NCBI GenBank assembly: GCA_012964235.1
Contig: DTUJ01000157.1
Coordinates: 1-37,677 of the forward strand
Direction of reading: 5' to 3'
Source: Fidelibacterota bacterium
Lineage (GTDB): Bacteria; Fidelibacterota; Marinisomatia; Marinisomatales; UBA8229
DNA length: 37,677 nt
The first letter of the stretch is position 1. Each line of letters opens with the position of its first letter. Below are positions 22,271 to 26,229 of this stretch, piece by piece. Both the position numbers and the translations under genes were made by a program. The notes beneath the pieces were generated by a model. It did not search any database and was not told the origin of the DNA. It saw nothing but the letters and a program-made list of their open reading frames with translations.

Positions 22271-23206
22271 ATAAACTCACAAACGCCGGCTCTTATTATT
22301 ATTGGTCCAACTTCCTGTGGGAAATCTCACCTTGCTGTTGAAATCGCCGGCAGAATAGACGGAGAAGTGATTGGTCTGGACTCGCGCCAGATATATAGTG
22401 GAATGGAAATTGGTACTGCCCAACCCACAAAAAAGGAACAGGATGCAATTCCCCATCATCTTATTGGTATTCGTTCTCCTGAAGAACCGATAACCTCAGG
22501 TGAATATGCGAAACTGATTACAGCTACAGTGAGGGATGTTCGGAAACGTGGTAAAGAGCCAATAATCTGCGGGGGATCAGGTTTATATTATAGAGCAATC
22601 ACTAAGGGAATTTTTAAAGGCAGTGTTAGTAACCTTAAAGTACGTGAACAACTTGAAAAAGAGTATGATGAAGAAGGAGGAAGCGTTCTATTAGGAAAGC
22701 TACAGAGCGTAGATCCTGATTATGCGAAAATTGTTCATCCAAACAATCGCAGGAGACTGGTGCGGGCGCTTGAAATCTACAAAGCCACGGGGAAACCACC
22801 CTCTATCCACTTTAAGAAGCAGAAAAGGTCTGGAGAAAAAGGCCTGGACAAATTTACAGTTTTTCTAACCTGTTTTATTGATAAATTGGAAAAACGAATT
22901 CGACAGCGAACAAAAATAATGTTAAGTAATGGATGGATAGAGGAAGTACAGAACCTTCAACTGAAGTTCCAAAATAAACTGTTACATCCACTAGACTCTA
23001 TTGGTTACCGGCAGATAATTGCTTATTTGAATAATAAATTATCCTATGAAAAAATGGTGGAAGATATTAATCTGCGTACACGCCAGTATGCAAAACGGCA
23101 ATTACAGTGGTTCAGTAAGGAATCGTCTGACATGAAAATTGAATTGTCGGGAGATTTTAAAAAATCTGATATTGCTGCTCGAGTTATTCATAGTTGGCAA
23201 GGTTAG
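22271..23206 (+). CDS. miaA: tRNA dimethylallyltransferase MiaA (apparent non-canonical start)
   Basis: In-frame TPALIIIGPTSCGKSHLAVEIAGRIDGEVIGLDSRQIYSGMEIGTAQPTKKEQDAIPHHLIG. The P-loop lies upstream of the ORF-track start (GTG 22367); ATA 22271 is a tentative start. Confidence 0.88.
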   Translation: MNSQTPALIIIGPTSCGKSHLAVEIAGRIDGEVIGLDSRQIYSGMEIGTAQPTKKEQDAIPHHLIGIRSPEEPITSGEYAKLITATVRDVRKRGKEPIICGGSGLYYRAITKGIFKGSVSNLKVREQLEKEYDEEGGSVLLGKLQSVDPDYAKIVHPNNRRRLVRALEIYKATGKPPSIHFKKQKRSGEKGLDKFTVFLTCFIDKLEKRIRQRTKIMLSNGWIEEVQNLQLKFQNKLLHPLDSIGYRQIIAYLNNKLSYEKMVEDINLRTRQYAKRQLQWFSKESSDMKIELSGDFKKSDIAARVIHSWQG

Positions 23207-23292
23207 ACTCCCACCCATTTTTACTAATACAACATTATTATTTTTCTTTTTAACTATTTCCCCTATTTATTGTATGTTCCGGCTCGAATTAG

Positions 23293-23389
23293 CCCTTTAA
23301 TCCATTCCAGTGAGAAGGAAAGGGAGCAATTGAGAACCTCCGTTCATACGGTTCCAGCAAACTGGAATGATTCAAGCGGGGGTTTTTTT
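23293..23389 (+). promoter_or_regulatory. PyrR-type transcription attenuator leader (anti-antiterminator / antiterminator / terminator)
   Basis: PyrR-box-like ATTCCAGTGAGAAG in a hairpin (CCCTTT/AAAGGG lower stem); 9-bp perfect antiterminator CATTCCAGT(23303-23311)/ACTGGAATG(23361-23369); alternative terminator CCTCCG(23337-23342)/CGGGGG(23377-23382)+T7; pyrR starts downstream. Confidence 0.85.
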
Positions 23390-23444
23390 ATAGCCTCCAG
23401 TTGGAAAGGGTAGAGAATACAACATTGATCATGGTAAGTTAATT

Positions 23445-23993
23445 ATGGTGAAAGCAAAACAGGTTTTAGACGCAAAATCAATACAAAGTATTGTAATACG
23501 TTTGTCTCATGAAATTGTTGAAAAGAATCATGATTCTACCGAACTTACTCTAGTAGGGATCCAAACCCGTGGAGGACCTCTGGCAAAGAGGATTCAGGCC
23601 TTAATTCATAAACACTCAGGTGTGAAAGTTTCCTTGGGATTGGTAGACATAACCTTTCATCGGGATGACTTTAGGGACCGATTGGTGGTTCCACAGGTGA
23701 AAGGGACTGATTTACCTGATTCCATTGATGATGGAATTGTCATTTTGGTGGATGATGTGCTTTATACAGGAAGAACGGTTCGTGCAGCAATCGAAGTTTT
23801 GCTTTCTTATGGAAGACCTGGGAAAATACAGCTGGGGGTATTGGTTGATAGAGGACATCGGGAGATGCCCATTAAGGCAGATTTTGTTGGAAAGAATATT
23901 CCCACCCAAGACGGTGAACATGTGGAAGTTCTTTTAAAGGAAGTGGATGGAAAAGATTCTGTAGAATTGAGGTTTTATGAAAGGGATTCTTGA
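23445..23993 (+). CDS. pyrR: Bifunctional pyr operon attenuator / uracil phosphoribosyltransferase PyrR
   Basis: VGIQTRGGPLAKRI, VILVDDVLYTGRTVRAAIEVL, LGVLVDRGHREMPIKADFVGKNIPT. Confidence 0.96.
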   Translation: MVKAKQVLDAKSIQSIVIRLSHEIVEKNHDSTELTLVGIQTRGGPLAKRIQALIHKHSGVKVSLGLVDITFHRDDFRDRLVVPQVKGTDLPDSIDDGIVILVDDVLYTGRTVRAAIEVLLSYGRPGKIQLGVLVDRGHREMPIKADFVGKNIPTQDGEHVEVLLKEVDGKDSVELRFYERDS

Positions 23994-24922
23994 TGCTCCA
24001 GCATAAACACCTTTTAGGTCTGGAAGGATATCCTTCCGAGGATATTCAGACTATTATTGATACAGCTTTTGGATTTCGGAAAGTGCTGGAACGTCCAATT
24101 AAAAAAGTACCATCCTTGCAAGGAAAAACAGTAGTAAATCTTTTTTTTGAAATGTCTACACGTACCAGAATTAGTTTTGAATTAGCGCAAAAACGTATGA
24201 GCGCTGATACAGTTTCTTTTTCGGCTGCTTCAAGCAGCCTGAACAAAGGTGAGAGTTTCAAAGATACCGTTCAAAATATCGAGGCCATGAAGATTGATGC
24301 TGTTATTTTGAGACACCCTGCATCAGGTGCACCCCTGCATTTAACCAAATTTGTAGATGCAGTAGTGATCAATGCAGGAGATGGGACGCACGAACACCCT
24401 ACCCAGGCTATTTTGGATATGATGAGCCTTCAGGAACAGTTTAATAACCTAGAGGGACTGAAAGTGGGAATAATTGGTGATATTTCCCATAGCAGGGTTG
24501 CGTTAAGTAATATTTTTGGATTGACTACCATGGGTGCAGATGTGATGATCTGTGGCCCGTCAACACTCATACCACCCCATATTGAAAAACTTGGTGTAAA
24601 GGTCAGTTATGATATGGATGAAGTAATTGATTGGGCCGATGCTGTTAATATACTCCGAATTCAATTGGAACGAATGGGTACCGGCTTATACCCTTCTATA
24701 CGGGAGTATAGAGAATTATTCGGCCTCTCCGTAGAACGAATAAAAAGACACAGCAAGGATCTTGTAGTAATGCACCCGGGACCCATGAATAGGGGAACGG
24801 AAATTGACAGTGCGGTGGCGGATAGTGACAGAGCAATTATTCTTGATCAGGTTTTAAACGGTGTTGCTTCCCGGATGGCAATCCTGTATTTATTGCTAGG
24901 CGGGAAAACAGAAGAAAATTGA
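23993..24922 (+). CDS. pyrB: Aspartate carbamoyltransferase catalytic subunit
   Basis: FFEMSTRTRISFELAQKRMSADTVSFSAASSSLNKGESFKDT, GDGTHEHPTQAILDMMSLQE, MHPGPMNRGTEID. ATG overlaps the pyrR stop. Confidence 0.97.
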   Translation: MLQHKHLLGLEGYPSEDIQTIIDTAFGFRKVLERPIKKVPSLQGKTVVNLFFEMSTRTRISFELAQKRMSADTVSFSAASSSLNKGESFKDTVQNIEAMKIDAVILRHPASGAPLHLTKFVDAVVINAGDGTHEHPTQAILDMMSLQEQFNNLEGLKVGIIGDISHSRVALSNIFGLTTMGADVMICGPSTLIPPHIEKLGVKVSYDMDEVIDWADAVNILRIQLERMGTGLYPSIREYRELFGLSVERIKRHSKDLVVMHPGPMNRGTEIDSAVADSDRAIILDQVLNGVASRMAILYLLLGGKTEEN

Positions 24923-24936
24923 TTTAGTAAAGAATA

Positions 24937-26229
24937 ATGCGAAGTAAAAAACAGCCGAGAGAACTCCTGCTAAAAGGTGGCACTGTTGTTGATCCATTTC
25001 GAAAAGAAAAATATGTTGGAGATGTCTTTATTAAGAATGGTAAGATTCAGAAAGTTGGTGATGTGAACTATAAATCTTCTATGACCCAGGTTGATTGTTC
25101 CGGTTTGATTGTGACGCATGGATTTTGTGATATTCATGTTCATTTTCGGGAACCTGGGAGGGAAGATAAAGAAAGCCTTGCTACTGGATCACAAGCGGCT
25201 CTCGCAGGAGGATTTACACGTGTTTGTGTTATGCCAAATACCAATCCTCCTCTTGACACTCCAGAATCGATTCGTTTCATTGTAGAAAAAGCAGAGACAT
25301 TACCCATTCATATTCATCCTATTGGTTCCATTACCAAGGGACAGAAAGGCAAAGAAATTTGTGAGATGGCCGCAATGAGAAATGAAGGCGCAGTTGCTTT
25401 TAGTGATGATGGCATACCTGTCTCAGATGGAGAAATTATGCGGCTTGCTTTAGAGTATGCAGGAATGATTGGAGTACCAATTATCAATCATGCTGAAGAT
25501 TGTTGCATCCGTAAGAATGGTGTTATGAACGAAGGAGAAATATCAACTCGAATGGGATTAACAGGGAATCCGGATATTGCCGAATCAACTATGGTGAACC
25601 GCGATTTAGAACTTGCACAGTTAGCAGGCTCAGTTCTTCATGTTCCTCATGTTAGCACGGCTAAAGCCATTAATCATGTTCGAAGAATGAAAAAAGAATA
25701 TAAACACCTTTCGGCAGAAGTGACCCCACACCATCTGTATTTCAATGATGAAGCTCTCGTTGAATACGACACAAATTTAAAGGTTGCTCCACCGATAAGA
25801 ACAGAGCATGACCGTCGAGCACTCATAAAAGCTTTGAAAGATGATGTAATCGATTGTATTGCTACTGATCATGCCCCTCATACTATTGAAGAAAAAGAGA
25901 GAACTTTTGATCTGGCTCCCTTTGGAATGATTGGGCTTGAGAGTTGTTTTGGTGTGGTTTATCAGATATTAGTGAAAGAGTCAGGGATGGCACTTGGAGA
26001 ATTGATACAAAAGTTGACCGTAAACCCAAGAATGGTGATGGGATTCCAGCCTGATTTGTTCAAACCTGGAATTCAGGCAGAGATTTCTGTGATTGATACA
26101 GAGAAGGAATGGGTATTTAAAAAATCGTCCATTCAATCCCGTTCTGGCAACAGTCCTTTCCTTGGTAAAAAAGTAACAGGGAAAATTCACTTTATTCTTT
26201 CGAAAGGAATCATTACTGAAATAACTTGA
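24937..26229 (+). CDS. pyrC: Dihydroorotase
   Basis: GFCDIHVHFREPGREDKESLATGSQAALAGGFTRVCVMPNTNPP, CIATDHAPHTIEEKERTFDLAPFGMIGLES. Confidence 0.96.
   Translation: MRSKKQPRELLLKGGTVVDPFRKEKYVGDVFIKNGKIQKVGDVNYKSSMTQVDCSGLIVTHGFCDIHVHFREPGREDKESLATGSQAALAGGFTRVCVMPNTNPPLDTPESIRFIVEKAETLPIHIHPIGSITKGQKGKEICEMAAMRNEGAVAFSDDGIPVSDGEIMRLALEYAGMIGVPIINHAEDCCIRKNGVMNEGEISTRMGLTGNPDIAESTMVNRDLELAQLAGSVLHVPHVSTAKAINHVRRMKKEYKHLSAEVTPHHLYFNDEALVEYDTNLKVAPPIRTEHDRRALIKALKDDVIDCIATDHAPHTIEEKERTFDLAPFGMIGLESCFGVVYQILVKESGMALGELIQKLTVNPRMVMGFQPDLFKPGIQAEISVIDTEKEWVFKKSSIQSRSGNSPFLGKKVTGKIHFILSKGIITEIT

Follow-up and report, generated by a model that had tools for sequence, protein, structure and literature searches.

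The window analysed here, a stretch of 37,677 nucleotides from a Fidelibacterota bacterium, carries a leader in front of genes for pyrimidine synthesis, and the question raised by this locus is whether the genes are governed by PyrR and, if so, through which RNA switch. PyrR attenuation is best known from Bacillus. A sequence-only reading had proposed a PyrR-type attenuator and had guessed that the host might belong to the FCB group. The sequence and anatomy of the leader, the homology of its hairpin and of the encoded protein, the covariation of the hairpin, the gene context and the energetics, including a computed fold that switches as the 3' arm of the terminator emerges, all agree with that proposal. 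We therefore conclude, with a probability of about 0.93, that the leader works as a transcription attenuator under PyrR control, through which pyrR-pyrB-pyrC is autoregulated. Since the PyrR encoded in the window is 96% identical to those of two Candidatus Neomarinimicrobiota MAGs (GTDB Fidelibacterota), the guess about the host was also right: it is an uncultured marine member of Candidatus Neomarinimicrobiota (Fidelibacterota, SAR406), which belongs to the FCB group.

All features described below lie on the forward (+) strand, and a readout of the sequence placed the hairpin, antiterminator, terminator and U7 tract exactly where they had first been reported. The PyrR-box hairpin, the putative anti-antiterminator, spans 23293-23324 and contains the box sequence AUUCCAGUGAGAAG at 23304-23317. 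It has a bulged base at 23304 and a CAGUGA loop at 23308-23313, and comparison with the feature list for PyrR-binding hairpins (PMC7430163) and with the Rfam consensus found the CAGNGA loop, the upper stem, the purine-rich internal loop and the CCUU/AAGG lower stem all in place. The antiterminator, which we call type A, has its 5' strand CAUUCCAGU at 23303-23311, overlapping the 5' arm and loop of the hairpin, and its 3' strand ACUGGAAUG at 23361-23369, which doubles as the 3' arm of the inner stem of the terminator. The two strands are exact complements, so the 9-bp perfect helix originally described does consist of nine Watson-Crick pairs, and 0.2% of shuffled terminator loops yield a helix as good. 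Downstream of the hairpin lies an intrinsic terminator (23336-23389), made up of the 5' arm ACCUCCG (23336-23342), an inner stem in which GUUCCAG (23351-23357) pairs with CUGGAAU (23362-23368), and the 3' arm CGGGGGU with the U7 tract (23377-23389, the tract itself being 23383-23389), both evident in the sequence and in the folds. CCUCCG (23337-23342) and CGGGGG (23377-23382) pair with one G-U, and the addition of A23336-U23383 brings the stem to 7 bp, such that the whole 5' arm, which is present in the full-length minimum-energy fold, pairs with 23377-23383. Because the antiterminator has bases in common with the PyrR hairpin (5' arm and loop) and with the inner-stem 3' arm of the terminator, the three RNA states are mutually exclusive. 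Right after the U-tract, at 23393-23400, stands GCCUCCAG, a conserved element found also in L009 and L010 that is a partial complement of the 3' arm of the terminator.

Computed energies agree with this exclusivity. The 116 nt from 23280 to 23395 fold to -39.9 kcal/mol, whereas shuffles average -27.5 kcal/mol (z = -3.8; 0/200 shuffles). For a transcript ending at 23370 the lowest energy, -22.2 kcal/mol, belongs to the antiterminator, and in the full-length leader the hairpin plus terminator is preferred (-37.4 vs -29.5 kcal/mol), in thermodynamic folding that takes no account of kinetics or pseudoknots. The antiterminator is thus excluded by the hairpin and itself excludes the terminator, by strand sharing as well as by energy.

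In B. subtilis, UMP-bound PyrR stabilises the anti-antiterminator, with the result that the terminator forms (PMC7430163). PyrR binding, the UMP signal and actual termination at the present locus we infer by analogy with Bacillus. When UMP and UTP are plentiful, UMP-bound PyrR would grip the PyrR-box hairpin as it emerges from RNA polymerase, and the hairpin so held would make 23303-23311 unavailable to its downstream partner; the terminator (23336-23383) would then form and transcription would stop at the U7 tract. When pyrimidine nucleotides are low, PyrR would be off the RNA and 23303-23311 would be free to pair with 23361-23369, which would block the inner stem of the terminator and allow the genes to be transcribed.

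The genes are those expected of such a system, and the claim that the leader precedes pyrR-pyrB-pyrC is borne out by calls above the family cut-offs. The first, pyrR (23445-23993), encodes a regulator/uracil phosphoribosyltransferase that scores 222.5 bits with the equivalog NF003549.0 (cut-off 138) and matches the PDB structures of the Thermus (1ufr) and B. subtilis (1a3c) proteins; the locus therefore encodes PyrR itself together with the pyr genes to be controlled. Its stop codon overlaps the start of pyrB (TGATG), which encodes aspartate carbamoyltransferase (23993-24922; NF002032.1, 388 bits, cut-off 263) and is followed by pyrC, encoding dihydroorotase (24937-26229; TIGR00857.1, 396 bits, cut-off 279). 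The order pyrR-pyrB-pyrC recurs in 76 of 80 related loci. Upstream of the hairpin, TATGTT (23273-23278) resembles the -7 element of FCB-type promoters (TAnnTTTG), and its spacing is conserved: of 58 leaders from the phylum, 34, the window among these, have TAnnTT exactly 22 bases 5' of CTTTAA. We regard it as a putative promoter element. A generic sigma-70 scan and a terminator scan picked up neither promoter nor terminator, the former because the element is not sigma-70-like and the latter because the terminator loop is longer than the limit of the scan.

Whether the hairpin is the PyrR element was examined with covariance models. The full length of the Rfam PyrR model (RF00515) can be aligned to 23290-23391, at a score of 30.8 bits that no other place in the genome matches (next, 22.1 bits); the proposed Rfam search thus singled out the right site but left it under the gathering cut-off of 54 bits. 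That cut-off was reached in 0/61 genomes of the phylum searched, and the Rfam model appears insensitive in this phylum, for which reason leaders of relatives were extracted to build models of our own. As a gathering cut-off is a detection limit set by curators and not a mechanistic feature, we assign the leader to the mechanism rather than to the curated Rfam entry. Our held-out model R2, built from 22 sequences that all come from outside the family of the window, gives the site 47.6 bits (E=7.2e-9) and finds it to be the sole strong site in the genome. The next best has 18.4 bits, and no further PyrR site above this score, and hence no wider regulon, was found in the genome of the window. A match to Phe_leader (21.5 bits) was rejected, being far under its cut-off of 55 and without leader peptide context.

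The covariation anticipated for related genomes is present. Among 25 hairpin sequences 95.3% of cells are paired, and 8 of 11 pairs show two-sided changes, bulged (36-nt) and unbulged (37-nt) upper stems being counted separately and the model covering the bulged form only. On four of five measures 0/500 shuffles did as well, while on the fifth, the number of pair types, five shuffles matched it; sliding the strands against each other lowered pairing to 50-62%. A second model, R1, matched in 55 of 120 genomes of the class, once per genome, and in 54 of these 55 cases pyrR follows on the same strand at a distance of 51-497 nt. In most leaders of relatives the box is followed by a U-tract terminator.

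Beside these stand several families with another arrangement. Two leaders of the neighbouring family f11 (L092 in G118, L094 in G057) have a complete attenuator with the other antiterminator, type B (see below), 328-497 nt 5' of pyrR, and the interval shows no evident ORF. In family f2, of the same order, 18 listed streamlined genomes of 0.7-1.0 Mb (G002, G010, G014 and others) are without a pyrR match, and no PyrR box was found in those of them listed in the box search; PyrR control has apparently been lost along with genome reduction. In sister family f18, nine leaders (L126, L127, L129, L131, L132, L136, L137, L141, L142) have a strong terminator about 40 nt 5' of pyrR and a conserved promoter-like TAACTTTG. 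They have no PyrR box, and six of the nine have GAAGTGA in its stead; a consensus structure beyond the terminator was sought in them and none was found.

When hairpin regions and terminator loops were compared across 48 leaders, it emerged that the antiterminator first described for the window, although present throughout its genus, is not the usual helix of the lineage. The usual helix is type B, in which GGGCAG(N) in the 3' flank of the hairpin pairs with (N)CUGCCC immediately 5' of the 3' arm of the terminator. Type B is found at p < 0.05 in 39 of the 48 leaders and in most of the order of the window. Among 43 leaders (the genus of the window and L070 excluded), the observed partners pair better than in any of 1000 re-dealings, and C-G, A-U, U-A, G-U and U-G all occur at its variable seventh position. 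In the genus of the window type B is absent: GGGAGC (23322-23327) occupies the site of the GGGCAG strand without a partner, and the best such helix in the window is at chance level (p = 0.38). Type A, in which the 5' arm and loop of the hairpin pair inside the terminator loop, occurs in all four members of that genus (the window, L009, L010 and L091; p 0-0.004 each), in a separate clade of eleven, where CCGUUCC/GGAACGG has become CCAUUCC/GGAAUGG by compensatory change, and, weakly, in L070. In most leaders cut before the 3' arm of the terminator, the window included, the minimum-energy fold contains one or the other antiterminator.

Because the inner arm GUUCCAG duplicates box sequence, the local hairpin may account for some of the type-A match. 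In its full form, this alternative accepts the box and terminator as real but takes the whole 9-bp helix for a by-product of the inner hairpin GUUCCAG/CUGGAAU, with PyrR acting on the terminator by another route. The window, L009 and L010 do repeat UUCCAG of the box in the terminator inner stem, a 7-bp hairpin formed locally should outpace a 9-bp helix that has to close a 49-nt loop, type B is missing from the window, and in L009 the antiterminator has one pair fewer and lies above the computed minimum (-16.7 vs -18.9 kcal/mol), a non-antiterminator state being favoured. However, given that L091, with an inner 5' arm diverged to GUUUCCA, still keeps all nine box/antiterminator pairs, that the second clade has the type-A helix without a duplicated arm, and that in three of the four genus members the shortened transcript has its energy minimum with the antiterminator, we consider this explanation unlikely.

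Seven leaders carry both types (L018, L022, L029, L039, L041, L044, L051) and form one clade (support 97/92); their two helices cross and hence are either alternatives or parts of a pseudoknot. On the PyrR tree the label 'A only' needs three changes, forced by well-supported branches, a count that is approximate since the tree is built from a single protein of 180 residues and the A and B labels are set by stem scores. One reading, to which we give even odds, is that the antiterminators of the Fidelibacterota PyrR attenuator are exchangeable, an ancestral-looking type B having been replaced or joined by type A about three times. On this reading, type B would exclude the terminator chiefly by crossing it and not by strand sharing. 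If true, these leaders would be a natural record of an RNA switch changing its output helix while regulation was kept.

A second alternative to attenuation by PyrR is that the hairpin works on translation or mRNA stability and that the terminator is constitutive or weak. Seven relatives (L060, L066, L067, L077, L080, L036, L049) and MAGs of Actinobacteria and Thermoleophilia (L084, L087, L088) have a box before pyrR without a convincing U-tract terminator; these boxes may act on translation. In the window, by contrast, the 117 nt that separate the box from the start codon hold a full terminator as well as a mutually exclusive helix, and for this leader we regard the explanation as very improbable. 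That the leader is merely the terminator of an upstream miaA unit with chance pairing and no regulation, as might be argued from miaA ending at 23206 and from the order miaA - leader - pyrR - pyrB - pyrC kept in 61 of 80 loci, can hardly be entertained when the box shows conservation and covariation throughout the class, precedes pyrR also in loci without detected miaA, and begins 22 bases after the conserved promoter-like element.

The PyrR-controlled attenuator thus preferred is of a known kind in a new phylum. A limited literature search found no report of PyrR attenuation in Marinimicrobia/SAR406. The occurrence outside the Firmicutes is less noteworthy than first supposed, as the box and terminator are found also in Fusobacterium and in Melioribacter/Ignavibacteriota. 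The taxonomic point is modest, and the turnover of antiterminators is more interesting. In a large part of this uncultured ocean phylum PyrR attenuation emerges as the common means of controlling pyrimidine synthesis. The phylum offers about 50 natural variants of one switch with a constant sensor hairpin and a varying antiterminator, and a usable covariance model is now supplied where that of Rfam scores under its own cut-off.

The PyrR RNA family has been called moderately distributed (PMC3766115). The pyr attenuators of Bacillus velezensis (AR1-AR3, L119) share with the window the hairpin CCUUUAA...UCCAGNGAG...AAGG, a U-tract terminator, a competing helix and the position before pyrR and pyrB. 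R2 recognises AR1, the pyrR leader (20.2 bits), as well as a box of Acetoanaerobium (22.1 bits). Unlike B. velezensis, the window has a bulged base in the upper stem; it lacks pyrP between pyrR and pyrB, the helix that involves the box has 9 bp against 6 in AR1, and there is one site per genome instead of three. In AR2 the 3' arm of the hairpin matches the 5' arm of the terminator (0/500 shuffles), as it does in Paenibacillus at p = 0.11. Six controls, a small set, included none with type B placed as in Neomarinimicrobiota. Type A, judged by sequence, does appear to have counterparts outside the phylum: the box motif CCAGAG has a possible pairing partner in CUCUGG of the terminator loop both in AR1 (weakly, p = 0.11) and in the pyrR leader of Fusobacterium vincentii (L122, p = 0.03), which belongs to another phylum than the window and has an unbulged, Firmicute-like box. 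Within the FCB group, Melioribacter/Ignavibacteriota (L085, L086) have a PyrR box (33.7 bits with R2 in Melioribacter) and a CCUCG/CGAGG-like terminator before pyrR, and their PyrR is 53% identical to that of the window. Most other Neomarinimicrobiota of the order have the type-B GGGCAG/CUGCCC helix missing from the genus of the window and are like the window in hairpin, terminator, promoter spacing and gene order.
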